In this document: in pieces, positions 3,787-45,775 of the stretch
Numbering within the stretch: position 1 is the first letter of the stretch
How the letters are laid out: every line of letters starts with the position of its first letter
Source of the DNA: a virus
DNA: 61,529 bases
Reading direction: 5' to 3' (one strand)
IMG/VR virus record: IMGVR_UViG_3300025632_000015
Span: 1 to 61,529 of that record
Made by a program: the position numbers and the translations under genes
The notes under the pieces: generated by a model
The model's database searches: none
Told to the model about the DNA's origin: nothing
What the model saw: only the letters and a program-made list of their open reading frames with translations

Positions 3787-3791
3787 ACAAA

Positions 3792-5804: not shown

Positions 5805-5809
5805 TTAAA

Positions 5810-9084: not shown

Positions 9085-9093
9085 TCACTACCT

Positions 9094-9101: not shown

Positions 9102-9115
9102 AGCGACCCTCTCCG

Positions 9116-10537: not shown

Positions 10538-10546
10538 GGTGATTGA

Positions 10547-10849: not shown

Positions 10850-10853
10850 TACA

Positions 10854-11069: not shown

Positions 11070-11078
11070 GGCGGAGGT

Positions 11079-18259: not shown

Positions 18260-21200
18260 TATTGCAACCCTACTGAACTTTCCAGAAATAGGACAAATAC
18301 TTTCTGGTAACAAAGTTACTGATACAGACGTCAAGTATAAAGATGGTGTATTTAGATACAGAATAACTTTACCAAAAGGCGTAAGACGTAGCGACATACC
18401 AAACATACTGCGTGATTTTTACAATATTGGAATTTTTACATTGAATAGCGAAGATCACATAGTAGAGAATCATGACTATCAAACAAGGACCACCAGAAAC
18501 AATGTAGTTGTAATCGGGTCAATGCAGATAACTCCTGTGAGTTTAACTAATCCAGTACTAAAGAAGATGACTGCTCTAGAAGATTTTAACAACGAATATG
18601 ATAAGATGGTCATGACGGCTCCGGAGACTTACTTCAAAGCATTTCCATATAGAGGCTTTAATGGCCCAACATTTAGGGCTAAACTATTTTCTTTCGTATC
18701 AAACATGGGAGAAAACTATGGGTACTGTGATGATAAAACAATCTACCATCGTAGAGCATCATTAGTTATGCCTAAAATAAAAATTACCAAAGCACCGGAA
18801 CAAGCAAAAATGTTCTACCATACACACCCTAAAAGAGACGAACCGTCTCTGAGTTCTGCAGACGACTATCTAATATATTTCGATATGAGTCACAAGCCAA
18901 GAAATATTAGACACTTCTATACTGTAATGGCAGACAGAATGGATTACTTTCACATTGTACCTAAACCGTCAAAGAAGAAAGACTACGTTAAAATTAATGA
19001 AGACAAGTTCATTGCAGAGTTAGATAATCAAATAGATGAAGCCGCAAGCAGATTAGATCAGGTGATGTCTAGTGATTCATACGGTGACGACTTACAATAC
19101 TGTGAAAAAGTAACACGTGAAGTAGTAAAATGGTTAAACAATAAATATAAAAAATACTTTACAATAACTTACAAATGCCACTACCGAGTAAAGAATAACC
19201 CAGATAAACCAACTGGAAACGATTTGCACTTAGATGATGAGTTTATTGGTAAAGCACTAAAAGATCTGAAAACAGGAGCTGCATCTTGGCCAGAGTTTAG
19301 GGAGAAAGACAAGCCACAAGAAAATTATGCATATTGGCATTCAAAATACTTTACTATGAATAAGGATGCAAAAGGCGTTGGTTACATGGGGTTACTTCCC
19401 GGTGACACTAGAAGGTTCAACCATTTCATATATGCTAATTATAGAGGTAGTGAATATACCTATGAAGATATACTAGGTATACTATGTATAAGTAATGATA
19501 TAAAGATTAGAGATGCTAAGATAAGAGATGGTAAAGGAATTACTAGTAGGATAGAAGATATCTTAGATTACTTAGAGATACACAATGAAGAGATTAGAGA
19601 AGACATTATGCTTTATGATTCTATAGTGGCAGTAGATGCTTATGGGTCTATGGCAGAAATAGTTGGTGAAGAACATAATTTTATTTTACCGATAGCAGAC
19701 TTTTCAATGCAAAGTGTAGAAGCAATGAAGCTAGTTCGTGGCGGTAAGAAGAATCTGGAGCGAGCAAAATATGATATCATGGTTACGCTCAAAGAAAAGA
19801 TGGGTAAAGCAGTAGCAGATGCCTTGGGAAAAAGGAATAAGCAACTGGTAGACACTGGAACACCCGTATCAATTAATGCATATCACCCATGGAATGATCC
19901 CACAGACACTCGCAATACCTATCCAGGAGATAGCATAAAATCATCTACATTGGGGATTAATCCTCCAGTTCAAAGAAAAAAACGTGAGTTTGGTATGGTT
20001 TTACCAAAAAACGTATTTGACAATCAAGAGTTGCTATTAGAAGTTTTAGAACCGTTCAAAAAACCAGATAAGGATTTAAGAAACGAAAGAACAAACCAAT
20101 ATAACATTGTTGTGCCTGGGGACAACTCTGCTGTGAATTTTACTTTTTACGACACTGGTACCGTCCAAATATTTGTTCCGGCAAAAGGATACCCAATGCC
20201 AGAAAATCCAGACGAAGCAGTTCTTGTTGCAGTTAGAACACTTATTGAAACAATAAATGACATGGGACTTGCGAAACCCATTGAAACAGATGATATAGCA
20301 TTTGGTACGATAGAACCGATACGTAACCCAAATACTGGAGTTATCGTAGCCTTAGTCGGGCCAATACAGCCGACAAAAAACAAGATACTTGATTCACTGT
20401 CTAAAAGAATGAACGCTAGTGTAGTAACTACGTTCACGACAAAGATACTGAAGGCTTACGAGAGAAGACCAAACATAGTAGAAGTTACTGATGAGATATT
20501 TACTAAGATGGAGAATGGTGGAGAGATAGTCGTAGCAACACAAACATACGATGGTTACAAGCGTGGATTCAGCAGAAAAGATATGCAAAAAGGAGATTTC
20601 ATGATGATAGATGCAGAGGTAAGTGATTTACACTTTCTGATTAATGCAAAGCCGTCTGTGATTAGTTTCTTCTTACATCCAACTAATTCTGAGGCAACAA
20701 TAGAAGGATACATGTCTAAATATGTTTCACCTCAAGAAGCAAAAAGAGTTTCTAGGTCTATCGAACCTTCACAAGATCAAGTAGAACATATTATTGAATA
20801 TGACATTGAAAGACCTGCTTCGGCAATAGAAGAAATCTACAACACAATTCCAAAACCAAACCCAATGCCTAAATCAATTGGTTCTATGATGGTTTCATCA
20901 AATGGTGAATATTACTTACGTGTAAAAAACAATCCTTCACACAATAGTTGTCCAGCAGTAACACAGAACTTGGAATTAAATACCAAGAATAGAAACTCTG
21001 CAATAAAAGCAGATTACATAAAATACGGCCCACTTAATTTAGCAGACGAAGATTACTGGGTCAAAGCAGCGGAACACTGGAACACAACACCAGAAGTTGC
21101 TAAAGAATCAAAGTGTGGTAATTGTGTCGCATTTGACATATCACCAAGAATGTTAGATTGTATGCCAGGATCTGTACAAGATGACGGGCAATTAGGAATG

Positions 21201-23411
21201 TGTTGGATGCACAATTTCAAATGTCATTCTGCTAGAACTTGTTACACTTGGGCAGCAGGTGGGCCAATAACAGAGGATTCTGTTTCTTACGATTGGCAAG
21301 AAAGGTCAGCAAAATCCAACCCTCAAAAAAAAATTTCAATTAGAATAGATGAAAGCACAAACCCAGAAAAGAAAATGATGGCTGTATTTACCAAACCAAA
21401 TGGTAGAACAAAGACCATTCACTTCGGTGCTCGCGGCATGAGTGATTATACTCAACACAAAGATAAATCACGCAGAAAGAACTACCTTGCACGTCACGGT
21501 GGAATGGGAGAAGATTGGAATGACCCAATGACAGCAGGTGCATTGTCAAGATGGATTCTATGGGGCAAGCCGAGTCTAAGGGAATCGTTTAACGACTTCA
21601 AGAAGAGATTCAACTTGGAAGGAGTTATGGCTGTCACGAACACAAAGATGAATCCTTCATACACAACCAAGTTCGACTTTGTTCCAGGCAAGGAATATAC
21701 TTTTGATGAACTACCAGGACATGAAACAGGAAGAATGGTAACTGCACTAGAAGAAGAATATGGGCCACTTGGAACTTCCCTAAGAGAAGATGCACTTCAT
21801 CACTTTAGAAGCAAAGGAATGGAAGGTGGATATGGTTTTCCCGGAACTGCACAAGAGGCAATTTACAAAGCAGTAATTATTCCCAACGAAGAGTTAGTGG
21901 AACGATTTGGACACTTACAAGGAAAGCCAAAACTACAGAAGCATATCGAAAAGTATGGATTAGATTACCCTAGTATTGGTAACGAAGGAAACAATAGAAG
22001 AATTGCTATGGCTAAACTTGGAAGAGATATGCCGCATTTAGAAGTCGTCCCAGCAAAGATGAACCCAAGAATCCCAAAGAAGTACGAAGGACAAGATCCA
22101 AGCGAACATTCAGACCTTTACACCGATGAAGATCCAGAAGGAACAATTCAAGGCTTGGGGTTTAAAGACAAAGCAACAGCAACGAAATCAATTCGATTGA
22201 TTAAGAACTCAGGAAAAACTCACGCACATAAGATACAAGCAGCAATGGCTATGGAACAAAGAGCAAGATTCCACCCTAATGCAACAAAAGGAATCAAAGA
22301 GGCACAGAAAGTTTACAAGCAATTTATTGAAGAAATGAAAGTGAAAACAAAAGAAATGAAAGTAAAACTAAAAGTGAACCCAATGGCTCCCGGCTATCAA
22401 TCATATTCATGGACTACAGAAGACTGGCGTTCAATTAAAGTAAACAACAAAGGAGAAATAGATTACAAAGAAAAGTGTGGGGCAGAAGGAACACAAACAC
22501 CAGATGGTTCTCCTAGACTTTGTTTACCTGTGGAAGTCATTAGGTCTTTGTTAAGAACTGAATCAGGAAAAGATGTTATTCGTACACAAGCAAGGAAAAA
22601 AGCCCGTGCTAAGAAAGGTGAGAGAGTTCCTTGGCATCCAAGGATTAAGAAAATTTGGAAACGTGTAAAGGAACAAAGTCCCAAAGACAAGAAAAATCCA
22701 AATCCATATTACAATGCACATCTTTATGCAAGTGGTAGTACAGACCCATTTTTCCCAGGAGACGTACCTGTGGCTCCACCAGCCTTGTTAAAGAATCCAC
22801 CAAGTAAAGTAATTATTGTAAGTGGCCCATCTGGTTCTGGAAAATCAACCATATCTAAAACAATAGCAAAAGAACTTGGCGGCACACTTGTACCAACTGT
22901 GACAACAAGATCCAGAAGACCAAAAGAAAAAGAAGGAGGAGACAGAATCTTTGTTTCTAAAGATGAATTCAAAGAAATGATAGATAACAATGAGTTTGTT
23001 GAATACAAGCAACACAAAGATGGAGTCTTTTACGGCAGAAGAAAAACAGACATGGATGACATATCAATTGTAGAAGTTAGCCTAAAAGGAATGAAAGAGT
23101 ACAAAGAACTTTATCCAGATTCATTTGCAGTATTCTTAGAGCCAGATAAGTCTCCGAAAGAGATAGAAAAAAGATTATTGTTAAGAGGCGGTATGTCAGA
23201 AGCAAATGCAAAAGCTAGAGCAAGTATAATTCCTAAACAAGTTGCAGCAGCAAAAACAATGCCTTATGATTTATTTATCAAATCAAGAACAGGTAAGTAT
23301 TCAGAAGTAGCAAAAGAAATAATTAGTCAAATACCAATGGCTAATCCACATTGGCGACATGGTGAAGCGATGGACGAAGAAGACGATCCGTTTGCAGACC
23401 AATTTAACTAA
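18225..23411 (+). CDS. Mosaic protein: JAMM protease domain, small viral domains, guanylate kinase
   Basis: 1728 residues; the start overlaps the previous gene by 35 bases with GGAGGAAG before the ATG. Residues 163-213 carry a JAMM metalloprotease pattern: a candidate Glu 163, then HTHP (198-201) and SSADD. Residues about 705-880 are laid out like guanylate kinase but with a broken P-loop (GPIQPTKNK). About 960-1007 is a Cys-rich module (CGNC, GMCW, CHSARTC). About 1028-1140 has an HFGARGMSDYT-HKD-RH pattern known from giant viruses and phages (DUF5754-like). About 1141-1280 ends in an EGNNRRIAMAKLG ParB-like motif. Two further small domains follow. About 1525-1700 is an intact guanylate kinase (GPSGSGKST). 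Most borders carry KxNP motifs. It may be a polyprotein. Confidence 0.6.
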   Translation: MNQMMKTTTSHDIATLLNFPEIGQILSGNKVTDTDVKYKDGVFRYRITLPKGVRRSDIPNILRDFYNIGIFTLNSEDHIVENHDYQTRTTRNNVVVIGSMQITPVSLTNPVLKKMTALEDFNNEYDKMVMTAPETYFKAFPYRGFNGPTFRAKLFSFVSNMGENYGYCDDKTIYHRRASLVMPKIKITKAPEQAKMFYHTHPKRDEPSLSSADDYLIYFDMSHKPRNIRHFYTVMADRMDYFHIVPKPSKKKDYVKINEDKFIAELDNQIDEAASRLDQVMSSDSYGDDLQYCEKVTREVVKWLNNKYKKYFTITYKCHYRVKNNPDKPTGNDLHLDDEFIGKALKDLKTGAASWPEFREKDKPQENYAYWHSKYFTMNKDAKGVGYMGLLPGDTRRFNHFIYANYRGSEYTYEDILGILCISNDIKIRDAKIRDGKGITSRIEDILDYLEIHNEEIREDIMLYDSIVAVDAYGSMAEIVGEEHNFILPIADFSMQSVEAMKLVRGGKKNLERAKYDIMVTLKEKMGKAVADALGKRNKQLVDTGTPVSINAYHPWNDPTDTRNTYPGDSIKSSTLGINPPVQRKKREFGMVLPKNVFDNQELLLEVLEPFKKPDKDLRNERTNQYNIVVPGDNSAVNFTFYDTGTVQIFVPAKGYPMPENPDEAVLVAVRTLIETINDMGLAKPIETDDIAFGTIEPIRNPNTGVIVALVGPIQPTKNKILDSLSKRMNASVVTTFTTKILKAYERRPNIVEVTDEIFTKMENGGEIVVATQTYDGYKRGFSRKDMQKGDFMMIDAEVSDLHFLINAKPSVISFFLHPTNSEATIEGYMSKYVSPQEAKRVSRSIEPSQDQVEHIIEYDIERPASAIEEIYNTIPKPNPMPKSIGSMMVSSNGEYYLRVKNNPSHNSCPAVTQNLELNTKNRNSAIKADYIKYGPLNLADEDYWVKAAEHWNTTPEVAKESKCGNCVAFDISPRMLDCMPGSVQDDGQLGMCWMHNFKCHSARTCYTWAAGGPITEDSVSYDWQERSAKSNPQKKISIRIDESTNPEKKMMAVFTKPNGRTKTIHFGARGMSDYTQHKDKSRRKNYLARHGGMGEDWNDPMTAGALSRWILWGKPSLRESFNDFKKRFNLEGVMAVTNTKMNPSYTTKFDFVPGKEYTFDELPGHETGRMVTALEEEYGPLGTSLREDALHHFRSKGMEGGYGFPGTAQEAIYKAVIIPNEELVERFGHLQGKPKLQKHIEKYGLDYPSIGNEGNNRRIAMAKLGRDMPHLEVVPAKMNPRIPKKYEGQDPSEHSDLYTDEDPEGTIQGLGFKDKATATKSIRLIKNSGKTHAHKIQAAMAMEQRARFHPNATKGIKEAQKVYKQFIEEMKVKTKEMKVKLKVNPMAPGYQSYSWTTEDWRSIKVNNKGEIDYKEKCGAEGTQTPDGSPRLCLPVEVIRSLLRTESGKDVIRTQARKKARAKKGERVPWHPRIKKIWKRVKEQSPKDKKNPNPYYNAHLYASGSTDPFFPGDVPVAPPALLKNPPSKVIIVSGPSGSGKSTISKTIAKELGGTLVPTVTTRSRRPKEKEGGDRIFVSKDEFKEMIDNNEFVEYKQHKDGVFYGRRKTDMDDISIVEVSLKGMKEYKELYPDSFAVFLEPDKSPKEIEKRLLLRGGMSEANAKARASIIPKQVAAAKTMPYDLFIKSRTGKYSEVAKEIISQIPMANPHWRHGEAMDEEDDPFADQFN

Positions 23412-23455: not shown

Positions 23456-24160
23456 ATGCGTCTGACAGGAAGGTTCATTGAATCATTCAAACACAGGCAC
23501 GGTGTTGTATTAGGTATTACTAGAAGTGGAAAGACTTTCTTGGCAGCAAAGGTCTTACAACGAATACAAGAAACAGGTGGTCATACGCTATTTATTGATC
23601 CTAAGCACGATGATGGCTATTCTCACCTCGGTACAATTTGTACATCACCAATAGAAGTTTATGAACAACTTTTGTTAAAGAACCCAGCAATTATATTCAG
23701 AACACCAGGGACTTCAGAAGAAAGAATAGAAGCATTAGATAGAGTAGTAGAGTTAATGTTCACACTACAAAGAACAGCAGGTTTCAAAAGAATTAGGAGA
23801 GTTATAGCAATTGACGAAATACAGTTGTTCGTTAAGAAAGGCAACTCTCGTGCAGTGGAAATGATTTGGACAATTGGTGCAGGTATTGGAATCGTAGGTA
23901 TGGCATTGACCCAAAGAATCCAATTACTTAACGAAACTGCATGGTCACAATCAGACAACAAAGTAATTTTCAGAATAGAAGATAGACCAGAGTATCTTAG
24001 AAGTAGGAACTTAGAACACTATGTTGAGCAATTAGATTTCTTTACCGACCCAATGAATAAATATTGGTTCTATTATACACAAGGCGGTGGCAAGTGGAAA
24101 AAGCACGAACCAGTTCCATTGATTGATGAGACCAAATCACTTAACTTAAGTCGGTTCTAA
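23456..24160 (+). CDS. FtsK/HerA-superfamily ATPase, candidate genome-packaging ATPase
   Basis: The product has 234 residues. Walker A is GITRSGKT (residues 20-27), Walker B is VIAIDE (about 116-121), and a conserved LTQR at about 151 matches the sensor glutamine region of HerA/FtsK ATPases. The small size and single domain match packaging ATPases of membrane-containing tailless viruses rather than chromosomal FtsK or HerA. The start is an ATG 45 bases after the previous stop; no ribosome site is seen and an AT-rich stretch precedes it, so a leaderless start is possible. The inferred role is ATP-driven DNA transfer into the virion. A role in replication or partition cannot be excluded. Confidence 0.7.
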   Translation: MRLTGRFIESFKHRHGVVLGITRSGKTFLAAKVLQRIQETGGHTLFIDPKHDDGYSHLGTICTSPIEVYEQLLLKNPAIIFRTPGTSEERIEALDRVVELMFTLQRTAGFKRIRRVIAIDEIQLFVKKGNSRAVEMIWTIGAGIGIVGMALTQRIQLLNETAWSQSDNKVIFRIEDRPEYLRSRNLEHYVEQLDFFTDPMNKYWFYYTQGGGKWKKHEPVPLIDETKSLNLSRF

Positions 24161-24181
24161 TTGAAAGGCATAATAAGAACT

Positions 24182-24197
24182 AGCCTCTCAGGAGGCT
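24182..24197 (+). promoter_or_regulatory. Hairpin overlapping the ribosome site of the 24201 gene
   Basis: AGCCTC and GAGGCT form a six-base-pair stem with a TCAG loop, ending three bases before the ATG at 24201. The GGAGG ribosome site lies in the right arm, so folding would hide it. This could down-regulate translation or respond to a bound protein. Confidence 0.45.
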
Positions 24198-24200
24198 TAG

Positions 24201-24737
24201 ATGGCCATTACGATTAGCGCACCCCACTTCAAAGAATCAGTAGATGACCCTAATATCAAACCATTTCTAGATCAACTAGAATCTTTTTTAGACCTTAAGA
24301 ATATTCCCCACTACATCGTCAAAGGAACTTCATTGAAAACAATGTTAGACTTAACAACATCAGAAGCAAGGGGCACTAGTTACAATCAAGAACTTGCAGC
24401 GTATCTAAAGATCAGTGACTTGCATCTTGAGTTGCATGCGTATGATTTTGATACACATGAAGATTGGTCTACATCAGATTTGGTTATTGGAAAGCTACTA
24501 GGTTATACAGATGAAGAGTTACTAGGAGATTTTGAAAATGTTTTGGGTTCTAGTGCAACGGTTGAGACAAACATGGTAGTACCAATGGGACACTATGCTA
24601 GTGCATTAAGTGAGTTTGTTTATCAGATACCTAGTATAGTATTATATGTTAATGTAGATAGTAGTCAACTATACCCTAGTATAACAGAAAGTATAACAGA
24701 TATTATTTTGGATTACGAGGAGCGTAAAACTTCATAG
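24201..24737 (+). CDS. Hypothetical protein with LELHAYDF motif
   Basis: The product has 178 residues. The N-terminus reads like a beta strand followed by APHF; the middle contains DLHLELHAYDFDTHEDW, with a cluster of His, Glu and Asp that could bind metal. Remote resemblance to N-formylglutamate amidohydrolase-type hydrolases is possible but I cannot support it firmly. A TATAG-rich patch fills the 3' third. Its last 35 bases overlap the opposite-strand regulator gene. Its ribosome site is inside a hairpin. It follows the ATPase, so a virion-associated hydrolase is one possibility. Confidence 0.5.
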   Translation: MAITISAPHFKESVDDPNIKPFLDQLESFLDLKNIPHYIVKGTSLKTMLDLTTSEARGTSYNQELAAYLKISDLHLELHAYDFDTHEDWSTSDLVIGKLLGYTDEELLGDFENVLGSSATVETNMVVPMGHYASALSEFVYQIPSIVLYVNVDSSQLYPSITESITDIILDYEERKTS

Positions 24738-24930
24738 GTTCGTTTTTTACTGTCCAGCGTAAGAAATCAACAGCAGCGTTGATAGCGTGAGACCTATCTT
24801 TGAATATTTTTTGGTCAATCATTTCATCAACCATATCATAAAGTTCTTTGTTCATAGTAAAAGAAACAGGAACTTTTCGACTAAAATCTCTTTCAGTCTG
24901 TCTTCGAGACACATGTTTCGCATAATACAT
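24703..24930 (-). CDS. Ribbon-helix-helix regulator (CopG/Arc type)
   Basis: About 75 residues from the ATG at 24930; a GTG at 24912 fits better with a leaderless message from the GTATATG element just upstream, and an open frame extends to 24972. The core has a strand (KVPVSF), helix one (about NKELYDMVDEMID) and helix two (about SHAINAAVDFLRW), the classical ribbon-helix-helix layout of dimeric DNA-binding regulators. It is read against the flow of its neighbours and diverges from the basic nucleoprotein-like gene. It probably controls that shared promoter region and possibly its own. Confidence 0.65.
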   Translation of the reverse strand: MYYAKHVSRRQTERDFSRKVPVSFTMNKELYDMVDEMIDQKIFKDRSHAINAAVDFLRWTVKNEPMKFYAPRNPK

Positions 24931-25014
24931 ATACTTATCACACTTTTCAATGGCACAGCAATATCGCAGCATAATCTATAGATGTATGACACGAACATAT
25001 AGTAATGCACGCCC

Positions 25015-25022
25015 CTTATATC
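25015..25022 (+). promoter_or_regulatory. TATA box for the basic repeat protein gene
   Basis: CTTATATC lies 30-37 bases before the ATG at 25052, so transcription would start only a few bases upstream of the codon. This supports 25052 as start rather than the in-frame ATG at 24950, which lies upstream of the box. Confidence 0.5.
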
Positions 25023-25051
25023 CCCCCTCCCCGTCGGACAGGTTAGATCGC

Positions 25052-26089
25052 ATGCCTTTAGCTGAAGTAGTAATACTGAATCCGCGAAGACCCGCTGCAA
25101 AGCGTAAGACGTCTAAGAGGAAGAAAAGCGTACGATCGAAAAACAAAGGAATGAATAAAATGGCAAGAAGAAAATCTGTAAAAAGAGTAAAGTCAACCAG
25201 AAGGAAGACTACTACTCGTCGAAAACCGACTACACGTCGCCGTAAAGTAACCCGTAGAAAAGCTGCCCCTAAGAGGAAGACTACTACTCGTAGAAAAAAG
25301 ACTGCACGCAGAAAAGCTGCACCTAAGAGAAGAGTAGTAAGACGCCGAAAAGTGGCAAGGAAAGCTGCTCCTAAGAGACGCAGAACTACACGTAGAAAAG
25401 CTGCTCCTAAGAGACGCAGAACTACACGTAGAAAAGCTGCTCCTAAGAGAAAGGCTACTACACGAAGGCGTATAGTAAAAAGACGTGCTGCACCTAAGAG
25501 AAGAAAAACTACTCGAAGGAAAACTGCACGTAGGAAGACTACAAGAAGAAAGAGCACATCTCGTGTTCGCCGAAGTCGCCGTTCATCAAAGATGAGCATC
25601 AAAGGATACACTTCATTCGTGAAGACCCACTTAGACCTAAAGGCTCTGGGTGTTGTTGTCCTTGGATTGTCTCTACCTTCGATGGCAGGGTATCTCGCAT
25701 CAACAAATGTTGGTATGAGAGCAATGTCCTACGTGGACATGGTACCTGGTATGACAACAAACGTTGGAAAAGCAGCTCTTGCTGTTGGTCTAACCGCTGC
25801 AGTATCATACGGAATGTCTGGCTTAGGAGTCATTAGTGCTAGTGAAGCATTAACAGCAAACATGATCGCATTAGGTCTTGTAACTGTTGGCGCATTACAA
25901 TCTATGAATCTACCTGTAGGTAGTGGAATAGTTTCTAATCTACCAAGTTCTGGCGGTCTCGCTGGTCTAGGTAGTGCTTCATATGGATACATCGGTAACT
26001 ACCACGACACTGGTATGGGTGTAGGAGCAGAAATGCTTCCTCAACCACAAGGTGCTCAGTTATTCGGCGTCCGTGCTAATATATTCTGA
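25052..26089 (+). CDS. Arg/Lys-repeat DNA-condensing-like protein with hydrophobic C-terminal domain
   Basis: 345 residues from the ATG at 25052. After a short N-terminus with an NPRRP motif, residues about 15-185 are nearly all Arg, Lys, Thr, Ala and Pro, built on repeats of the form RRKAAPKRRRTT, like linker-histone tails, protamines or viral core proteins. The remaining 160 residues switch to hydrophobic segments (about VVVLGLSLPSMAGYL and ALAVGLTAAVSYGM) and end in a Gly-rich tail with GLAGLGSASYG and a polar C-terminus. The inferred role is to condense DNA and tether it to a virion membrane. Sequence alone does not show whether the two halves stay joined. Confidence 0.65.
   Translation: MPLAEVVILNPRRPAAKRKTSKRKKSVRSKNKGMNKMARRKSVKRVKSTRRKTTTRRKPTTRRRKVTRRKAAPKRKTTTRRKKTARRKAAPKRRVVRRRKVARKAAPKRRRTTRRKAAPKRRRTTRRKAAPKRKATTRRRIVKRRAAPKRRKTTRRKTARRKTTRRKSTSRVRRSRRSSKMSIKGYTSFVKTHLDLKALGVVVLGLSLPSMAGYLASTNVGMRAMSYVDMVPGMTTNVGKAALAVGLTAAVSYGMSGLGVISASEALTANMIALGLVTVGALQSMNLPVGSGIVSNLPSSGGLAGLGSASYGYIGNYHDTGMGVGAEMLPQPQGAQLFGVRANIF
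25364..25435 (+). repeat. Two perfect 36-base tandem repeats encoding AAPKRRRTTRRK
   Basis: A 36-base unit occurs twice without a mismatch (25364-25399 and 25400-25435), and the first 15 bases occur again. Flanking copies are diverged versions of the same 12-residue unit. Identical DNA copies point to recent unit duplication, a route for length change of the basic domain. Confidence 0.85.
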
Positions 26090-26125
26090 TTAGTAAAATA
26101 ATTGGGAAGTCTTTACAAAAACATC

Positions 26126-26149
26126 CTAGGGGGCCATCCGGCCTCCTAG
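26126..26149. terminator. Hairpin between convergent genes
   Basis: CTAGGGGGCC and GGCCTCCTAG form a ten-base-pair stem (one G-U pair) with an ATCC loop, between the basic protein gene and the leftward regulator gene. No long T-run follows on the plus strand; on the minus strand a short ATGTTTTG follows. It is probably a transcript end or 3'-processing structure. Confidence 0.5.
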
Positions 26150-26166
26150 AGATGCTCACTATAATA

Positions 26167-26397
26167 TTAAAAAGTCCCTCTCTCATCGAGAGTCTTCATA
26201 GTTATGTTTCTTCTAACATACTCATTTTCTGTAATCTGTTTTTCAACAAGATCACCTGCTATACGCATGAGTACACAAGAGCGGATATATGCAGAGACCG
26301 TTAGTTTAGTACGATTGGCTTCACGTAATATTTCTTGGTACTCTGCTTGACTAAACCTTAGAGTGACTACTTTAGAAGTACTACCTTTGGTGCCCAC
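26167..26397 (-). CDS. Ribbon-helix-helix regulator
   Basis: The product has 76 residues from a GTG start. The N-terminal strand KVVTLRFS is followed by AEYQEILREANRT and TVSAYIRSCVLMRI, a typical ribbon-helix-helix with MobC-like helix two. The rest is charged. It is divergent from the cassette starting at 26575; the shared 178-base interval holds two dyads and a TATA-like box, so it may repress the candidate capsid cassette, itself, or both. It is the second such regulator within 1.5 kb; the two flank the basic repeat protein gene. Confidence 0.65.
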   Translation of the reverse strand: MGTKGSTSKVVTLRFSQAEYQEILREANRTKLTVSAYIRSCVLMRIAGDLVEKQITENEYVRRNITMKTLDERGTF

Positions 26398-26440
26398 ATA
26401 TTATCCAACATGCATTCAGTAATAACCTTGTTGTACTGTT

Positions 26441-26482
26441 TTGTATGACAAACGAATACAATGTAGTCAAACTACTTATACA
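26441..26482 (+). promoter_or_regulatory. Promoter/operator region of the 26575 cassette
   Basis: A perfect dyad GTAGT-CAA-ACTAC (26463-26475) abuts a TATA-like TTATACATAA (26476 onward). A second inverted repeat (TTGTAT at 26441, ATACAA ending at 26461) lies just upstream. The transcript would begin near 26500, leaving a leader of about 75 bases. The dyads are good candidates for binding by the divergent regulator. Confidence 0.5.
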
Positions 26483-26574
26483 TAAGAGGCCAGTGGCACT
26501 GAATAACTCGAACGTCGACAACGTGGTGACAGTGAACTAACAACGAATTAATTAAAAATGGAAGTGAAAAAAAT

Positions 26575-27189
26575 ATGGAACTAAGACCTTACTACGACCG
26601 GCCTACCGGTCAAATTAAGAATTATTTAAGCCTTATTGAGCAAAAAATTGCTAGCAACTTTCCACACTGGGGTCGAGGATCTCAGGGTGTTTGGCCGAAA
26701 GGCGACTACGGTAAGGGAATCCTACGTGCTGATCAATTCAGTATATTAGGAACTTACGGGCAATGGTTAATCCCATCATCCGGTTCATCCGGAAACCCGT
26801 CCTCTGCATCTGTCGATTCCTTCGGTTGGTCATCCAAGACACTCAACTTCAAGTCACTAGAAGAATTTTTCTATTTGACAATGGGTATTCAATATCCGGT
26901 TACACCGCTTTTGATAACAGAACATCAATGGCAAATTTCCGGTATCGAAACACCTGTTATCGATCAGCAAATCTTCGAAGTACTAGAAGAACCGTTTGTG
27001 TGGTATGAATCACCTATTGTTATTGAACCTGAAAAGAACATCGTCTGCAACCACCGTGTGGTTGGAGGGGCTGCTAATTTCGGTAACTCTACAATAAGTG
27101 GCGCAGAAAAGTGGCGTGTAATAGGATCCGTCGTTGGTCAACACCACGAATTGATCCAGCTCACACAGAACATCGGAGAATTGAGTTAA
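26575..27189 (+). CDS. Candidate virion structural protein 1
   Basis: The product has 204 residues. GGAAGTGA lies nine bases before the ATG. Its composition (Pro, Gly, Ser, Trp, Tyr, Ile) and lack of charge clusters suggest a beta-rich soluble structural protein; there is no membrane segment or enzyme motif. A GACCGG-CCTA-CCGGTC hairpin sits at codons 8-13. It shares a promoter with the next gene and the pair ends at a strong terminator. I infer a major virion component, but no capsid fold can be recognised from sequence. Confidence 0.6.
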   Translation: MELRPYYDRPTGQIKNYLSLIEQKIASNFPHWGRGSQGVWPKGDYGKGILRADQFSILGTYGQWLIPSSGSSGNPSSASVDSFGWSSKTLNFKSLEEFFYLTMGIQYPVTPLLITEHQWQISGIETPVIDQQIFEVLEEPFVWYESPIVIEPEKNIVCNHRVVGGAANFGNSTISGAEKWRVIGSVVGQHHELIQLTQNIGELS

Positions 27190-27221
27190 TCCCTTTGGGA
27201 TTGGCATTGGAGTGATATACT

Positions 27222-28067
27222 ATGACATCAATAGGTGGATTAGACGTAGCATTCGGTGCTAGGATGCAAGTCGTTCGTACGAACGTATTGTGCCTCGCTC
27301 TTGCAAATACCGGTCTGGCAAACGCAACCACTGTACCAAAGTTCATCCTTAATACATACAAGGAAGGACTAAAAGGTACTGTGATTGAGCCCGACTTTTT
27401 GTATATCTATGAAGTAGCACAAATTAACGCATCAAGCGGTTACACAACCGCTGCTGTTATGGATGGCCTTTTCAATCAAGATAATTCTGGCGATGGTACA
27501 GCCGATACTACCGCTTTAGAAGTTAACGGTGTCCTTAGGGATATCCGTCAAACTCCTTTAGCAGTGAATAGCGCATTCGCAGACACGACAGCAGCACACG
27601 CTGTTTTCAGTACTGCAACGCCTCTTCACACGTATGACAACATACAAGGTAACCTGGCTCTCGAATCTGTTCTAAGCCTTTCCGCTATGGGACTTGCAGA
27701 CGCAACCGCAGACTTAACTGCTGGTGTGTTTTCAGACGCTGCTGATGCTGATGCAGATGCAGAATCCGGAATATTCCCACAAGCAGTACAGGCTTTGGCT
27801 TTTAAAGACGTATATGACAACGCAATGGCGACAACTGGTGGAAACCTAAACGCCGGTAGCAAATACACTGGTATGCATAAAGGACCGTTTACGGTCAACC
27901 TAACTAAGGCTCTACAACAACTAGAGACTGGAGCAGGTATTGCAACTGGTGCTGCTGCTGCAACTGTAGACGCATATACGGCTTCGACTACCTTTGGCAC
28001 AATGGCTAATGACTTATCTAGCGACGCTGGAATAATCAGTATGACATCTTTTGCTAAAGTAGTCTGA
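27222..28067 (+). CDS. Candidate major virion protein 2
   Basis: The product has 281 residues, with GGAGTGAT before the ATG. It is Ala/Thr/Asp/Val-rich, weakly acidic and without membrane segment, cysteine cluster or catalytic motif. Ala-Asp repeats (ADADADA) lie in the middle. It is followed by the strongest intrinsic-type terminator in the window, which is expected after a highly expressed gene. Together with its partner at 26575 it is my best guess for a major capsid protein. I do not recognise the fold, so this rests on context and composition. Confidence 0.55.
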   Translation: MTSIGGLDVAFGARMQVVRTNVLCLALANTGLANATTVPKFILNTYKEGLKGTVIEPDFLYIYEVAQINASSGYTTAAVMDGLFNQDNSGDGTADTTALEVNGVLRDIRQTPLAVNSAFADTTAAHAVFSTATPLHTYDNIQGNLALESVLSLSAMGLADATADLTAGVFSDAADADADAESGIFPQAVQALAFKDVYDNAMATTGGNLNAGSKYTGMHKGPFTVNLTKALQQLETGAGIATGAAAATVDAYTASTTFGTMANDLSSDAGIISMTSFAKVV

Positions 28068-28388: not shown

Positions 28389-29372
28389 ATGGCAAACCTA
28401 AATCAAGGATATAGAAGTGGAAACGCCTTCGGGCGACTAGCGAACGTGAGTTATGAAAATTATACAGGCGAAGACATAGCGTTGAAGCCTGGGTACTTAC
28501 TTAGAATACGTGATACGTATGCATTAGTAACAGGTGTAGAAGCAATGAGTGTTGACTTATTCTTTACAGATACTGTGAATGTTGGAATTACTGCGGTAAC
28601 ATCGTCAGTAGCAACTAACTTTGACGGTACACATGGTGACGCACTAGAACAATATGGTTTAGCATCAATCAGTGCTTACTACGATTTAGGAACAACAACT
28701 GTCGCAGAAACAGACAAGACTGGTAACATTCTTGCACCTGACTACGATTCTGGTTTTATTACTTTCAAAGCATTAGAACCATATGCAGGTAACTTATATC
28801 ACTTGTGTCCTACACTACCTCTACAACCAAAGTATATGGTTAAAGAAACAGGTGACTGGCATTCTCTAAACGCATTCCCACCGTATGACACATCTAACGC
28901 CGGGCTTCCAGTTGGATTCAGGGGTGACGGTACTTCCGAGCATCTTTCTCAAGTTGGTAGCGTTTCTGCAAAATTATACCTAAAACAACCTAGCGGTGTG
29001 AGCAAGCATACACTCGATGAAGCATCTGACGGTGAGTCTGCAAGAGCAACTGCAAGCGAAACAACGCTAGAAGGCATCTCTGGTTTCTTAGATGGAGAAA
29101 TGTCTCCTCTAGCAAACCCAAACTGGTCTTTTGGTATGATCGTAGAACACGGTGAAGCATCATTACCTGCATTCCGTGTGGTAAACGATTCTGATGAATA
29201 TATTCTAGATGGTCGTGTAAGATTAGTTGGATGGAAATACAAAATCCTAGAACTGTCACAAGAGCAACTTGCTACATTAAAGGCAAAAGCTGGTGGCAGA
29301 CTAAGATTCATGTACTACAACCCAGTTACTTACCAGTCGTCTGGATTCCTTAGCGATTACCTCGCTATGTAA
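28389..29372 (+). CDS. Beta-rich virion-like protein
   Basis: The product has 327 residues. It starts shortly after a promoter with only a weak ribosome site. Regular alternation of polar and hydrophobic residues, many Gly, Ser, Thr and Tyr, and no membrane segment suggest a soluble beta-sandwich structural protein. No family is recognised. It lies between the candidate capsid cassette and a second structural-looking gene, and ahead of eight membrane proteins. It could be a minor capsid, vertex or collar component. Confidence 0.55.
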   Translation: MANLNQGYRSGNAFGRLANVSYENYTGEDIALKPGYLLRIRDTYALVTGVEAMSVDLFFTDTVNVGITAVTSSVATNFDGTHGDALEQYGLASISAYYDLGTTTVAETDKTGNILAPDYDSGFITFKALEPYAGNLYHLCPTLPLQPKYMVKETGDWHSLNAFPPYDTSNAGLPVGFRGDGTSEHLSQVGSVSAKLYLKQPSGVSKHTLDEASDGESARATASETTLEGISGFLDGEMSPLANPNWSFGMIVEHGEASLPAFRVVNDSDEYILDGRVRLVGWKYKILELSQEQLATLKAKAGGRLRFMYYNPVTYQSSGFLSDYLAM

Positions 29373-29394: not shown

Positions 29395-30996
29395 ATGGCA
29401 TTATTCGATTACGATAGAGACGCACTAAAGCCGTCTATAATTTCGGCTCATGGTCTTAGACGTGAAGTGCAACGTAAAGGCGCATCTGGCGGTCAGCAAC
29501 AACGCCAAGAACAGAAGCAAAATAACATGCGTATCTTACAAAATGTAACATCTAACATATACAATTATGGATCTGGTGGAAATGCTAACACTACTGAAAT
29601 AGAACTAAGAACTGACAAGTTTAGAAACTTAAATATAGACAGTGGTGAAACACTAGAGATACTTGCTAAGAAAGGTGCGGGTCTCCTTCATGGTCTAGAA
29701 GTAGTAATAGATAATCCCTATGGGGCAGTATACCTAGAGATAGATGGATATAAGAATACTACAGATGGTATAGGTGAAACTCCAGCGGAGTTATTACTCA
29801 ATAATAGAACTACTAGAGTAGATGGACAATTCTATGTTAAGAGCGTTGCAACAGATGGAACATTTACTATGCTTTATACACCAACAAAACCAGAACCTTA
29901 CACAGAACAATTAAGAATAATGGTCTCTAACAGAATCAAACCATCAAGAGATGTTTTCGGACACAGTTTGAATTATACAAGTAGAGGTGGTATACCTACA
30001 CCGATTAAAACTGACTTCATGGGCGGTGGTTCTTACGTTCACACTGGACTAAAAGAAGCAAGTTTAGATACTCTAGCTTCGGCAATGGCAAAACCTATCG
30101 GCTCATCAGTCTACTCTGTTGACGATACTTATAACCAAGCAGTTTTTGATTCAAACAGCCACTTAATTGGTACAGGTCATCCATATCAAGGTCAGGCAGG
30201 TAAACCAATATTCACATTGAACGCGGAGTTCGATGGGACAACAGCAACAGTAGAGTTCGCAACAGTTGCTACGACTGGAGAAGATGCCAGCGCAGTAGCA
30301 GGTCCAGCATTAGGTAGTTCAGGTAATTTCCCAGGAACACCAGCCGCTCCGTCACATCAGAATGTATTCATTTACAAAGACACATCAAAAGATGTGACAG
30401 AAGTTGCGACACTTAATTTCGATGAAGCTACGGGTATTTTGCTTAATGAGTCCAACATCGGTGCAGACGCACAAACAACACTAACGGTTGACACAGTAGA
30501 TGCCACAACCAAGTTCGATGTCGGAGATGTTGTCCTTGATAACACAGGACAGAAGATAGGAATCGTGGAGGCTGTGACAGCAACCCTGATTACGCTCACT
30601 GCAAACAATATCGTAGCCGTCGACAACAATGAAAATCTAAGGAGAAAGTCCACGAGCATTCCAAAGGTCGGAGATAGAATATACTTTAGAAATAAAGGAA
30701 CTGTATACTTTCCAGGAATCGTACAAAACATTTTCCGATACAATCGTTCCGGCGACACAGGAGCAGACGGATGGACAAGTGAGACTACAGCAGCCTATGG
30801 AGACTCAACTGGAGCACATTGCTTCCAAGTGTCACCAGGACTTAGAGCGGCGGCATCAGTATTTACCAAAACATCAACCGATAGTAATGAAACTATTTCA
30901 ATGGGAGTAGTGACTTCAAACGCAGACAACAATCCTAAACTAAATGTAAAAGGATTATTCATCAAAAGACAGACAGTTATCGGATCGGAGACTTAA
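29395..30996 (+). CDS. Virion-like protein, possible fibre base or baseplate part
   Basis: The product has 533 residues, with a GGTGGGATAAAGTAA stretch before the ATG. Residues 1-45 are basic with a Gln-rich stretch (GGQQQRQEQKQ), then an Asn/Tyr/Gly-rich turn region. Residues about 60-200 look like one globular domain. The C-terminal half is rich in Thr, Val, Ala and Asp, as in fibre shafts. A TATAG-rich patch lies around 29560-29830, and the segment 30230-30850 has a slightly different base composition. No family is recognised. Neighbours suggest a virion role. Confidence 0.55.
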   Translation: MALFDYDRDALKPSIISAHGLRREVQRKGASGGQQQRQEQKQNNMRILQNVTSNIYNYGSGGNANTTEIELRTDKFRNLNIDSGETLEILAKKGAGLLHGLEVVIDNPYGAVYLEIDGYKNTTDGIGETPAELLLNNRTTRVDGQFYVKSVATDGTFTMLYTPTKPEPYTEQLRIMVSNRIKPSRDVFGHSLNYTSRGGIPTPIKTDFMGGGSYVHTGLKEASLDTLASAMAKPIGSSVYSVDDTYNQAVFDSNSHLIGTGHPYQGQAGKPIFTLNAEFDGTTATVEFATVATTGEDASAVAGPALGSSGNFPGTPAAPSHQNVFIYKDTSKDVTEVATLNFDEATGILLNESNIGADAQTTLTVDTVDATTKFDVGDVVLDNTGQKIGIVEAVTATLITLTANNIVAVDNNENLRRKSTSIPKVGDRIYFRNKGTVYFPGIVQNIFRYNRSGDTGADGWTSETTAAYGDSTGAHCFQVSPGLRAAASVFTKTSTDSNETISMGVVTSNADNNPKLNVKGLFIKRQTVIGSET

Positions 30997-30998: not shown

Positions 30999-31403
30999 AT
31001 GAAACTAGGAAAAAAGGTTATGAAATTCGCAGACGACTACCCTCTTGCAGTGTTAGCATTAGGTACGGTTGGAATAATGTATGCTTTTGAAAACGTAGGA
31101 CAAATCAATGGGCTAGGACAAGCAACATTCAAGACTAGTGGTAGCGATATGGATACTCTTTTCCACAAAACCGGACATACAGGAACAGCAGCACCAGGAA
31201 CAGGAAGATGGGACACAGTAATGCCTTCTCCATCCGGTCCACAAGTTCGCTATGATGCAGAGTATCATACACAACCTATAATGATGGATCCAGAATTAGA
31301 AAGAACTTTAGCAGAAAGAGGCAAAAGACCTGTTGTGCAAAGTCCATCAATTAGACATGGGTACGAACCAACAATCTTTGCAGGTATGAGACAAACACTG
31401 TGA
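30999..31403 (+). CDS. Small membrane protein with INGLG motif
   Basis: The product has 134 residues. It has a basic N-terminus (KLGKKVMK), one membrane segment at about residues 16-33, then INGLGQ at about 36-41 and a long polar Pro/Gly-rich tail. It is the first of a run of small membrane proteins. The start follows the previous stop by two bases, so expression is coupled. The G-L-G motif right after the membrane segment is shared with several neighbours. No family is recognised. Confidence 0.6.
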   Translation: MKLGKKVMKFADDYPLAVLALGTVGIMYAFENVGQINGLGQATFKTSGSDMDTLFHKTGHTGTAAPGTGRWDTVMPSPSGPQVRYDAEYHTQPIMMDPELERTLAERGKRPVVQSPSIRHGYEPTIFAGMRQTL

Positions 31404-31413
31404 GGCTTAAGTA

Positions 31414-31794
31414 ATGTTTACGTGGGATTCAGCGAAACGCCAACTAAAAGCGGCTGGTCCTTGGGGAATCACTGGTGCTTTTATTGGCAGCACAGGATTC
31501 GTAATTTTTGAATATTTAGACGGCAGTAGGTTGAGTATGTCGACTGTACTATTAGGTGCTGGCGTAGGTAGCTTAGTTGGTACTGGTATGGGTATGTTAA
31601 TCAACGCTGCGAGAGACCAAAGAATAGAAAATTACACGGTTGTAGCACCTGTTATAGCAACAGGCGTAACAATGGGCGCACTCAAAGCATACCCAGGTAC
31701 ACGTGGTATGTCAAACAAATCACTTATATCTGCTGGCCTAGTCGGTGGTACAGTCGGTTTGACACTAGGTGGAAGTATCGATTACTTAACATGA
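31414..31794 (+). CDS. Multi-pass Gly-rich membrane protein
   Basis: The product has 126 residues. Three or four hydrophobic stretches rich in Gly, Ala, Thr and Val (about residues 18-34, 43-66, 78-92 and 105-122) contain small-residue packing motifs. There are short loops and almost no soluble part. GTGAGG precedes the ATG. A likely virion-membrane protein; no family recognised. Confidence 0.6.
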   Translation: MFTWDSAKRQLKAAGPWGITGAFIGSTGFVIFEYLDGSRLSMSTVLLGAGVGSLVGTGMGMLINAARDQRIENYTVVAPVIATGVTMGALKAYPGTRGMSNKSLISAGLVGGTVGLTLGGSIDYLT

Positions 31795-31803
31795 GGAATT
31801 ATA

Positions 31804-32070
31804 ATGAAGTTACAAAGAAAAATAAAAACGTTCTATAAAAGAAACACCATGTTATCTATAGGTTTAGTTGGCGCTGCGGCGTACATGTATCTACAGAGAC
31901 AAGGAATGATGACAAGCCTTGCACCAGTACCTGTCAAAGCAACGACAAGTAGCGCACCGGTAGCAAGATATGCATACGATGCATACCCTCCGATTAGGAA
32001 TGAACCATACACAAATGCTTCACACTTCTTCGGACCTGCTGACGGAGACCCCGTCTTCTACGGATTCTGA
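31804..32070 (+). CDS. Single-pass membrane protein
   Basis: The product has 88 residues. A Lys/Arg-rich N-terminus (about 15 residues) precedes one membrane segment (about residues 16-30), then an Ala/Pro/Tyr-rich tail ending FYGF. GAGGAATTATA lies before the ATG. The basic-in, polar-out layout matches neighbouring genes and suggests they form one class of virion-membrane proteins. No family recognised. Confidence 0.6.
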   Translation: MKLQRKIKTFYKRNTMLSIGLVGAAAYMYLQRQGMMTSLAPVPVKATTSSAPVARYAYDAYPPIRNEPYTNASHFFGPADGDPVFYGF

Positions 32071-32080
32071 GGTTTTTAGA

Positions 32081-32422
32081 ATGTCAGGATGGTACGGATC
32101 TATGAATATGGGTGACTTAGGTCATCCCCACATGAGCGATGGAGATTTCTTTAGGGCTCACGACATGGCTCAAGAAGACCCAGGTGCTACAATCAACAAG
32201 CTTCACCCAATGCAATACGACAAGATGTCAGAAGCCGGTAAGAAAGCGGCAATGGGATTAGTTGTCGGTGCGATCGTCGGTGGAGTCCTTTTACAAGTTG
32301 GACCTTACAAGAAAATGATGACAAAGCAGAAGTCCTGGCAAGCTGCCGCAATAGGTGCGGCAGTAGCAGTTCCACTAATCGCTGTGTCCGGATCTTGGGC
32401 TCCTTCAAGGAAAGGAATGTGA
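32081..32422 (+). CDS. Two-pass membrane protein
   Basis: The start is the ATG at 32081, preceded by GAGGTTTTTAGA; an ATG further upstream lies inside the previous gene. The product has 113 residues. The first 50 are polar with many Met, His and Asp. Two hydrophobic segments follow (about 57-72 and 88-103) split by a KKMMTKQKS loop, with a basic end. No family recognised. Confidence 0.6.
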   Translation: MSGWYGSMNMGDLGHPHMSDGDFFRAHDMAQEDPGATINKLHPMQYDKMSEAGKKAAMGLVVGAIVGGVLLQVGPYKKMMTKQKSWQAAAIGAAVAVPLIAVSGSWAPSRKGM

Positions 32423-32426
32423 TTAA

Positions 32427-32669
32427 ATGAGCTATTTCGGAAACGGAATCGGAGAAATCACCGCACCAAAAGTAGCGGCTAGTACAGTAATAATTACTGG
32501 TGCAGTAGTTGCATTCGCTGTGGGCGGTGTAATGCAAGCATTAGCTGATGGTTATTTCTTAGGTCGAGCACAGAAGAAAGGTGTTACTTACAAAACTATA
32601 GCAAAGAGAAATGCTGTGCTAGGTGGCGCACTAGGTGCAGTAGCGGCTGCAGGAATTTTATCGGCGTGA
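32427..32669 (+). CDS. Two-pass membrane protein
   Basis: The product has 80 residues. Hydrophobic segments lie at about residues 15-35 and 60-78, with an RAQKKGVTYKTIAKRN basic loop between. The preceding TGA is within the TGATTAA-ATG junction typical of this window. No family recognised; part of the small membrane protein run. Confidence 0.6.
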   Translation: MSYFGNGIGEITAPKVAASTVIITGAVVAFAVGGVMQALADGYFLGRAQKKGVTYKTIAKRNAVLGGALGAVAAAGILSA

Positions 32670-32673
32670 TTAT

Positions 32674-32841
32674 ATGGGAATACAGAAAGACGCTAAAGGT
32701 GCTTGGAAAGATTCCAAAAAGTTTGCAAACAAACATCCAGTTGTATCTATATTAGTCGGTGGTGCAGTAGCATTCACAGCACTAAACATTTATTTTACTA
32801 GTTACATAATGACGAGCGCATTTGAGAAGGTGAATCAATAA
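32674..32841 (+). CDS. Single-pass membrane protein (55 residues)
   Basis: A short frame from the ATG at 32674 (preceded by GTGATTAT) to TAA. The N-terminal 20 residues are Lys-rich (KDAKGAWKDSKKFANK) and HP precedes a membrane segment at about 23-42. The stop overlaps the next start (TAATG). The layout copies the neighbours at 30999 and 32841, where a basic stretch and a short polar turn also precede the membrane segment, suggesting old gene duplication. Confidence 0.65.
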   Translation: MGIQKDAKGAWKDSKKFANKHPVVSILVGGAVAFTALNIYFTSYIMTSAFEKVNQ

Positions 32842-33716
32842 TGGCTAGAAAGAAAGGGATTGTTTCTGGATTAAAAAAGTATGGTAATAACCACCCATAC
32901 GTCACGCTAGCACTTGCTGGAACTTTCGGATACTACTTCTATGATAGTATGAAGCGTGGTGTATCTATACTACCATCTTCTTCTTCTGCATCATACACAT
33001 CTTCCTCTACTCCTATGAGTGATGAGGCATTTGCATTAATGATGGATGATATAGCCAGAATAGACGGAGTTTACAGAGTAAGATATGGAGCAAACTTCTC
33101 TAGTCCAAGTGTCACTACCGATATGGATCAAAGAAGTGCACAGATAATTAAGGCCAATTTAGACGATGCACTCAACTCCAGAGCAGCAATGTCATCAGCA
33201 CAAGTAGCAAAGTTAGAGGCTCTAAATACATTAATGACCAACGCATATCCAGTTGACTCAAACGGATTCAGAAGAATAAATGGACTAGGTGCAACAACTT
33301 CAACTTCAACCACATCATCATCTTCACACAGGATGCCGGGACCAGGCGATGGCGAGACGTCTATGTATATCGACCCTACAAAATCAGGACTGTTCGGAAT
33401 GGGTGCCGCAAAGAATCCACCATCTCACTTGATGTTTGATAAAGCACAAGGTCTGGGTGCGTGTCACAACTGTGGCGCAAGAAGTAACCCACACTGTCAC
33501 TGTGGTGGTTCACATGGTGTGAATGGTTTCTCACCTTCTGCTCGTAGAAGAGTAGGTCATGCTGGAATTGGTATGGCATCAGAATCTTACGAGGCAACAT
33601 TAGACACACAGTTTGAAAACCGTGAAGCAATGATGATGGGCGACTTAAAGAAACACCAAGATATTCTCGGCTTCTCAGGGCTAGCACCCTTAGCAGGCGG
33701 AGACTGGTACGAATGA
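32841..33716 (+). CDS. Membrane-anchored protein with Cys/His cluster and GLG/KNP motifs
   Basis: The product has 291 residues. A basic N-terminus and HPYV precede one membrane segment (about 20-35). Then follows a Ser-rich stretch, a helical domain (about 55-140), INGLGAT, a Ser/Thr-rich linker and FGMGAAKNPP. A small Cys/His module (CHNCG, then CHCGG) at about residues 205-223 probably binds zinc. The tail is polar. The gene starts on the preceding TAA (TAATG) and ends ATGA into the next. Motif positions suggest cleavage or flexible joints between modules. No family recognised. Confidence 0.6.
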   Translation: MARKKGIVSGLKKYGNNHPYVTLALAGTFGYYFYDSMKRGVSILPSSSSASYTSSSTPMSDEAFALMMDDIARIDGVYRVRYGANFSSPSVTTDMDQRSAQIIKANLDDALNSRAAMSSAQVAKLEALNTLMTNAYPVDSNGFRRINGLGATTSTSTTSSSSHRMPGPGDGETSMYIDPTKSGLFGMGAAKNPPSHLMFDKAQGLGACHNCGARSNPHCHCGGSHGVNGFSPSARRRVGHAGIGMASESYEATLDTQFENREAMMMGDLKKHQDILGFSGLAPLAGGDWYE

Positions 33717-34108
33717 TGCATAAGCACGCTCGCAAAGTTCCACGATACCATCCTGATTTAGATTGGGAAAGTCGTACGTTAAGTAATGATTTTATTGACA
33801 TAAATCGCATGGCTTTGGACGATAGTTTTAGTGGAAAGAATGCAGCACCGCTAAGTAAGCGTAGAAATGGTATTGGTTATACAGATAATAAAACACCAGG
33901 ATTATTCGGACTTGGGGCAATAGCGTCAAATGAAGATCCTAGAAAGACTTTTCTAATGGGAAGTTTAGTTGCGGTTGGTACATACACAATCATTGACTGG
34001 GCTACGCACGAGCCAAATCAAACTAAATTTAAAAGAATGATAAAAAGAACGCCAGGCTCCCTAATAGTGGGAGCTTTGGCGCTCAGCTTGTTTAGTACAA
34101 GTTCTTAA
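33713..34108 (+). CDS. Membrane protein with FGLGA motif
   Basis: The product has 131 residues, overlapping the previous gene by ATGA. The first 60 residues are polar and basic, followed by PGLFGLGAIAS, then two hydrophobic segments (about 82-96 and 115-128) with a basic loop. A GCTCCC/GGGAGC hairpin (34056-34074) lies within the 3' end and may act as transcript end for this strand and the opposing gene. It ends directly against the stop of the leftward gene. Confidence 0.6.
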   Translation: MMHKHARKVPRYHPDLDWESRTLSNDFIDINRMALDDSFSGKNAAPLSKRRNGIGYTDNKTPGLFGLGAIASNEDPRKTFLMGSLVAVGTYTIIDWATHEPNQTKFKRMIKRTPGSLIVGALALSLFSTSS

Positions 34109-37046: not shown

Positions 37047-37049
37047 TAA

Positions 37050-39425: not shown

Positions 39426-39469
39426 TGTTAATGTGTTAAAACCCTTGCACTGGGGAAAGTGAACCGTGC

Positions 39470-44342: not shown

Positions 44343-44344
44343 AT

Positions 44345-45774: not shown

Positions 45775-45775
45775 G

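Follow-up and report, generated by a model that had tools for sequence, protein, structure and literature searches.

The DNA analysed here, the IMG/VR virus record IMGVR_UViG_3300025632_000015 (61,529 bases, classed as linear and hereafter called the window), may be a fragment of a larger genome and carries a long run of virion-type genes, most of them pointing in the same direction. The analysis centres on an ATPase of 234 amino acids (aa) encoded at 23456-24160, on the nearby genes for two candidate capsid proteins of 204 and 327 aa, and on a group of related viral genomes, several of which contain scattered pieces of the 204-aa gene. The open reading frames (ORFs) reported by an earlier first-pass annotation of this DNA were found again at the same positions, and the features are as follows:

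1-2481, + strand: ORF cut at its 5' end, at least 826 aa, candidate membrane-anchored virion protein with a C-terminal hydrophobic segment (transmembrane segment 788-806)
2521-3786, + strand: 421-aa ORF with a hydrophobic anchor at the C terminus and a relative in G005
3783-23411, + strand: mostly large ORFs (673, 733, 366, 473, 100, 1008, 1384 and 1728 aa), with HAD phosphatase, DUF5754 and guanylate kinase domains
23456-24160, + strand: 234-aa genome-packaging ATPase of PRD1/B204 type, by profile and alignment
24201-24737, + strand: 178-aa ORF adjoining the ATPase, conserved in relatives
24703-24972, - strand: 89-aa ORF within the structural run, conserved in relatives
24950-26089, + strand: 379-aa protein rich in Lys and Arg, bearing two hydrophobic segments; a proposed DNA-condensing membrane protein
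26167-26397, - strand: 76-aa NikA-like/RHH protein, conserved (PF21983, E 1.1e-8)
26575-27189, + strand: 204-aa candidate small major capsid protein, the group's most conserved virion gene
27222-28067, + strand: 281-aa Ala/Thr-rich ORF, conserved chiefly at the N terminus
28389-29372, + strand: 327-aa candidate large major capsid protein, with a jelly-roll-like model of middling confidence
29395-30996, + strand: 533-aa ORF, candidate minor capsid or vertex protein, its position conserved in relatives
30999-34108, + strand: small proteins in a row, of which several contain a hydrophobic span; proposed virion membrane proteins
36009-47725, + strand: fibre-like proteins and three LamG/ConA lectin proteins, with a proposed role in receptor binding
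47735-47956, + strand: 73-aa protein weakly similar to a phage tail assembly chaperone (PF16778, below the cut-off)
48444-49997, + strand: 517-aa group II chaperonin (thermosome)
50140-53418, + strand: conserved block of a membrane protein, a small ORF, a P-loop/GTPase-like protein and two proteins of no assigned function, syntenic in G004 and G005

The packaging ATPase

The ATPase ORF matched PF13401 (E 1.9e-6) and PHROG 2666 (E 2e-13), and its alignment with the ATPases of PRD1, GC1, PM2, P23-77 and SH1 showed that the stretches which we take to be Walker A (GITRSGKT), Walker B (AIDE) and the TQR motif are kept. When a profile of 12 ATPases from the group was compared with these five known ones, the two were aligned over 190 columns with an hhalign probability of 99.1% (E 7.3e-19). 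In the PDB, the only full-length matches to the ATPase profile were STIV-type B204 packaging NTPases (4kfr, E 4.1e-5; 4r2h, E 1.1e-4); RecA and HerA entries also matched, several of them at better E-values, but across short stretches. STIV ORF B264, tried as a further comparator, was rejected as the wrong protein.

In INPHARED, the sole match obtained by tblastn was the packaging ATPase of the tectivirus GC1 (Gluconobacter phage GC1; E 5e-3, 25% identity over 91%), represented by two records of this one phage. PHROG 2666 bears the label 'terminase large subunit', and the GC1 ATPase is itself annotated in this way in one of its two records; therefore, the label is no sign of a tailed virus. A plasmid search with the ATPase gave, among the matches listed, only weak RecA-type ones. 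All together, these comparisons identify the 234-aa protein, at the level of its sequence, as a genome-packaging ATPase of the PRD1/PM2/SH1/STIV type and not a tailed-virus terminase, in agreement with the first-pass annotation, which had read an FtsK/HerA-type ATPase as pointing to a membrane-containing tailless virion.

Relatives, host and virion proteins

Relatives of the window were found in IMG/VR and in two metagenome-assembled genomes (MAGs). Specifically, a scan with an alignment including the GC1 and PRD1 ATPases returned six loci, namely four group members (53-66% identity), GC1 and one weak match (L014/G006), which was dropped since only about 36-39 residues aligned. The 204-aa protein detected 18 loci, 15 of them with a full-length or near-full-length protein, on contigs of up to 140,336 bases, plus two genome-collection contigs. 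Run one at a time against viral contigs, the ATPase, the 327-aa protein and the thermosome each returned no relative. The 1728-aa ORF, also tried as a relative finder, matched solely a T4-like contig sharing one small domain; residues 1281-1348 of ORF 18225-23411 make up a small domain with 62% identity to one in the T4-like phage contig L008, and this may be a domain common to unrelated viruses.

The 204-aa ORF is 93% identical to its counterparts in L009/L010, 76% to those in G004/G005 and 50-55% to those of a second clade, and when the window proteins are compared with their relatives it is more conserved than the ATPase and the 327-aa ORF. The conserved block comprises the ATPase, the 204-aa and about 327-aa proteins, the basic membrane protein, small membrane proteins and the thermosome. 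The second clade includes 3300017746_000001 (G014; 128,784 bases), with an exact direct terminal repeat of 123 bases, and 3300020446_000001 (G013; 127,570 bases), with one of 77 bases. The ends of G013 map within other contigs of this clade, as those of circular maps would, and both genomes look circular and complete; the lengths of the terminal repeats could be those of assembly overlaps, still implying circles. The 204-aa protein had no match in INPHARED, and a literature search conducted mostly among papers free of subscription gave no account of such viruses. The group thus appears to be undescribed, as the first-pass annotation had suggested.

That annotation had seen no terminase, portal or known capsid fold, and had named a terminase/portal/HK97 set elsewhere in the same genome as the finding that would speak against its proposal. 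No such set was found, either in the window or in the apparently complete relatives. Profiles PF03237, PF04860 and PF05065 matched none of 11 records of the group, the circular-looking G013 and G014 included, while control genomes were positive. In addition, G014 was scanned against Pfam and PHROGs with 119 of the 122 ORFs of 100 aa or more called in it (three short ones omitted; ORFs at piece borders were cut). Among the families listed (for PHROGs, 25 of 27 and 25 of 31 in two of the three batches), terminase, portal and HK97 capsid were absent but for PHROG 2666, whose label the window ATPase draws as well. Very divergent forms of these proteins possibly exist in the group.

Fibres are present, as the first-pass annotation had proposed: the window encodes three LamG lectin proteins as well as fibre-like ORFs, and some PHROG matches in G014 carry a 'tail fibre' label. 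The tail-fibre chaperone of that annotation did not hold up in the same way, the ORF at 47735-47956 matching PF16778 only below threshold (E 0.0015, 18.7 bits, cut-off 26.6). Since fibres and lectins are not specific to tails and the chaperone match is sub-threshold, the suggested mixture with tailed-virus modules is not supported. These same features could nevertheless be expected in a tailed archaeal virus, magrovirus-like, with a terminase, portal and HK97 capsid too divergent for profiles and a HerA-like ATPase serving another role; moreover, PMC5332604 describes thermosomes in tailed MGII viruses too. The negative profile searches, in the 11 records as in G014, and the full-length match of the ATPase to tailless-virus packaging ATPases argue against this explanation, which we consider quite unlikely.

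As regards the host, the best PDB matches of the thermosome are what we take to be archaeal chaperonins, and it is up to 48% identical to thermosomes encoded in 39 of 39 genomes, these being the 'Euryarchaeota archaeon' MAG in which one relative lies (JAAZXA010000068.1, L048; 128 kb) and the genomes around it. The other MAG-borne relative (PAND01000026.1, L047; 101 kb) lies in a MAG labelled Flavobacteriales, in which it is probably mis-binned. One further relative, G017, encodes TFB, PolB and a 1,623-aa RNA polymerase large subunit, recognised by sequence motifs and a Pfam match; neither the ATPase nor an intact 204-aa gene was found in it, and its link with the group lies in genes for PolB, TFB and a nuclease that are 81-94% identical to those of G011 and G012. 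PF04997, the RNA polymerase large subunit, was detected in 6 of the 11 records, and the motif NAD[YF]DGD, presumably the catalytic one, in all four of the large subunits checked; none of the 11 records matched Rpb2 (PF00562). The presence of the RNA polymerase large subunit, TFB, PolB and the thermosome in the group points to a putative archaeal host.

The large subunit is unsplit and adjoins PolB in G004, G005, G010, G011, G012, G015 and G017 (for example L095:13748-18619, minus strand), and TFB occurs in several of the relatives bearing the polymerase gene.

The ORFs at 26575, 27222 and 28389 matched no Pfam or PHROG family, nor did ORF 1-2481 among the families searched; the ORF at 29395 likewise had no family, its LolA match being sub-threshold (E 0.085). 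By hydropathy, candidate membrane segments were called in 14 of the 63 listed window ORFs, one of these calls, in the ATPase core, being probably false. Structure prediction, the check put forward by the first-pass annotation, was carried out on two proteins, those of 204 and 327 aa; it gave a weakly jelly-roll-like fold for the product at 28389, while the model of the product at 26575 was unusable. The 327-aa model is beta-rich, with a mean predicted local distance difference test (pLDDT) score of 61.5 and a predicted template-modelling (pTM) score of 0.65. In Foldseek, what we take to be viral jelly rolls are common in the upper rows, with P23-77 VP16 recurring from rank 3 (E 0.11-0.39), and VIA likewise returned many viral jelly rolls, among them P23-77 VP17 (Z 3.6); unrelated proteins (nucleoplasmin-like and PHM chains) score in the same range. 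The model thus gives a hint of a jelly roll in the 327-aa protein. From conservation, gene position and this hint, we infer that the 204-aa and 327-aa proteins form a two-protein shell.

Alternatively, the virus could belong to the double-jelly-roll viruses (Bamfordvirae), its major capsid protein being another ORF (the partial 1-2481 or the 533-aa one) and the 204-aa and 327-aa proteins being minor or penton proteins. The closest database ATPase does come from a tectivirus, and the weak VIA matches include a double-jelly-roll virus chain, that of PBCV-1 (Z 3.6). However, it is the 204-aa protein that is most conserved, as the main shell protein should be, and the pieces of the relatives that were searched gave no match to ORF 1-2481 at E 1e-3; we therefore regard this assignment as unlikely.

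Our preferred reading, which we hold to be fairly probable as a whole, is that the window represents the virion-gene half of a large double-stranded DNA archaeal virus, whose group has circular-looking members of about 128 kb, and that this virus is tailless and membrane-lined, packs its DNA by means of a PRD1-type ATPase and has a shell made of the 204-aa and 327-aa proteins. The ATPase, at one vertex, would drive the DNA into an icosahedral shell assembled beforehand from these two proteins and lined with a membrane, and the Lys/Arg-rich membrane protein would condense the DNA. Fibres and lectins at the vertices would bind the host, the thermosome would fold virion proteins, and the relatives' viral RNA polymerase large subunit, together with TFB, would redirect transcription.

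Several observations weigh against such a virus. The two-capsid-protein viruses P23-77 and SH1 have genomes of 17 kb and 31 kb, so that a capacity of 128 kb would be new there. The model of the 204-aa protein failed (pLDDT 39) and was too poor for a fold search; that of the 327-aa protein had no Foldseek match in the PDB below E 0.048, no Z of 5 or above in VIA and no significant match in BFVD; and direct comparison with SH1 VP7 and VP4 gave no sequence similarity. Fibre-like ORFs and 'tail fibre' labels count on the same side.

The genes might also be those of no virus but of a large extrachromosomal element, similar to a plasmid or a Borg, that has taken up genes of viral origin. In a relative there are a resolvase and several methyltransferases, and in the window a NikA-like protein; Borgs, according to PMC12660748, have single-jelly-roll proteins without a ubiquitous packaging ATPase. 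The packaging ATPase and the strongly conserved structural-type genes in the relatives covering the region, as well as the fibres and membrane proteins of the window, make this origin very improbable. If the reading of a tailless virus is true, PRD1-type packaging would serve archaeal virus genomes at least 4 times larger than the known members cited, and the group would be a bridge between the small tailless viruses of prokaryotes and the large tailless viruses of eukaryotes.

Two side observations concern the window genes. The small conserved ORFs at 24703-24972 and 26167-26397 (the latter NikA/RHH-like) stand on the minus strand inside the structural run and are possibly late-gene regulators. 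In addition, in the region of large ORFs (3783-23411) and in the relatives, ORFs of at least 350 aa are enriched in a [KR]xNP motif (22 against 6.9 expected in the window, 29 against 10.2 in G010), small ORFs hardly so; the motif possibly marks a site of processing or a linker in virion proteins with several domains.

Scattered pieces of the 204-aa gene

From 15 first-clade 204-aa genes a DNA profile was built, which, run at E <=1e-3 against 12 relative records, detected 29 pieces of this gene in 8 of them. G007 and G018 represent the same virus (99.9% identity across the main overlap), and removal of two duplicates leaves 27 pieces in seven viruses (G010, G011, G012, G015, G017, G018/G007 and G005). 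Examples are:

L095:4361-4411, 9293-9360 and 13444-13563
L089:6604-6656, 11483-11541 and 15621-15768

With this profile no pieces were found in the window or in G004, and the second clade's own profile detected one piece there. Nothing was obtained at E 1 with the reversed profile. When four other structural genes were used as profiles on 10 of 13 sets, no scattered pieces appeared; since the 204-aa gene is the most conserved in the group, ancient remnants of genes that evolve faster would be missed.

The pieces sit in gaps or inside other genes, out of the frame of the 204-aa gene where this was checked, and their location is often common to several viruses. Within one gene, which we take to be primase-like, the same slot holds nucleotides (nt) 329-386 of the 204-aa gene in G011 and nt 124-191 in G017. 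Mismatches to the best-matching sampled gene number 57, 45 and 138 by codon position (p 4e-15). Most pieces are nearer to the gene of another virus than to that of their carrier, which is a best match in only 4 of 19 cases. One piece is identical at 31 of 31 positions to the gene of another virus (L035) and at 28 of 36 to that of its carrier; the 31-mer occurs in four viral contigs, three of which are the carrier of the piece and its near-copies. No CRISPR-like array was recognised in the repeats of L070.

These data make the pieces look like captures from functional genes of other viruses. They may act as guides, as decoys or in sabotage, or may be neutral captures, inherited without function. 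A bolder proposal, which we put forward tentatively and think more doubtful than probable, is that these large tailless archaeal viruses form a new group of high rank, have an RNA polymerase large subunit of their own, and compete with one another through short pieces of rival capsid genes embedded in their genomes. Kept in fixed early-gene slots, the pieces would act as guides or decoys, or as templates for sabotage, and would be directed at the capsid gene of the rival or its mRNA, in the manner of MIMIVIRE on a larger scale. If functional, the pieces would represent a new form of virus-virus competition, testable by sequence alone.

Comparison with known virus groups

Halopanivirales have genomes of about 30 kb or less, and two-protein shells exist in Helvetiavirae, to which they belong and which are marked by a pair of major capsid proteins, each a single jelly roll. 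With SH1 and P23-77 of this order, the new group shares the packaging ATPase family and the arrangement of a small and a larger putative shell protein gene close together and close to the ATPase; with SH1 it also shares an archaeal host, a putative one here. It differs in that no sequence similarity to SH1 VP7 and VP4 was found, a possible jelly roll being hinted at in the 327-aa candidate, and in genome length, the records measuring 17 kb (P23-77) and 31 kb (SH1) against 127.6 and 128.8 kb in the circular-looking relatives.

Tectiviridae (PRD1, GC1), Corticoviridae (PM2) and Turriviridae (STIV B204) have in common with the new group the ATPase motifs and full-length similarity, whereas no double-jelly-roll capsid was recognised in the latter. 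The remaining comparisons draw on PMC5894146, PMC12324425, PMC9894754, PMC12660748, PMC5332604 and PMC6538805. The prokaryotic double-jelly-roll genomes treated by Yutin 2018 (PMC5894146) are given there as roughly 7-18 kb. Magroviruses and MGII tailed viruses resemble the new group in a viral thermosome, PolB and an inferred archaeal host, but they are predicted to be tailed (PMC5332604), unlike the group, with its 11 records free of terminase, portal and HK97 matches. Borgs and Huracanviridae are likewise archaeal elements with single-jelly-roll capsid-like proteins (PMC9894754, PMC12660748). The completeness of Huracanviridae genomes is left undetermined in PMC9894754, and Borgs, as described in PMC12660748, lack a ubiquitous packaging ATPase, in contrast to the new group.

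As regards the scattered pieces, the literature search on comparable fragments turned up solely MIMIVIRE-type work. In MIMIVIRE (mimivirus R349), according to PMC6538805, short pieces of a rival's genome lie within a viral gene, and in both systems, then, short pieces of a rival virus genome would be held inside viral genes. In the new group, by contrast, the pieces are of up to about 130 nt, all appear to derive from one candidate capsid gene, and they lie in several genes of putative archaeal viruses.

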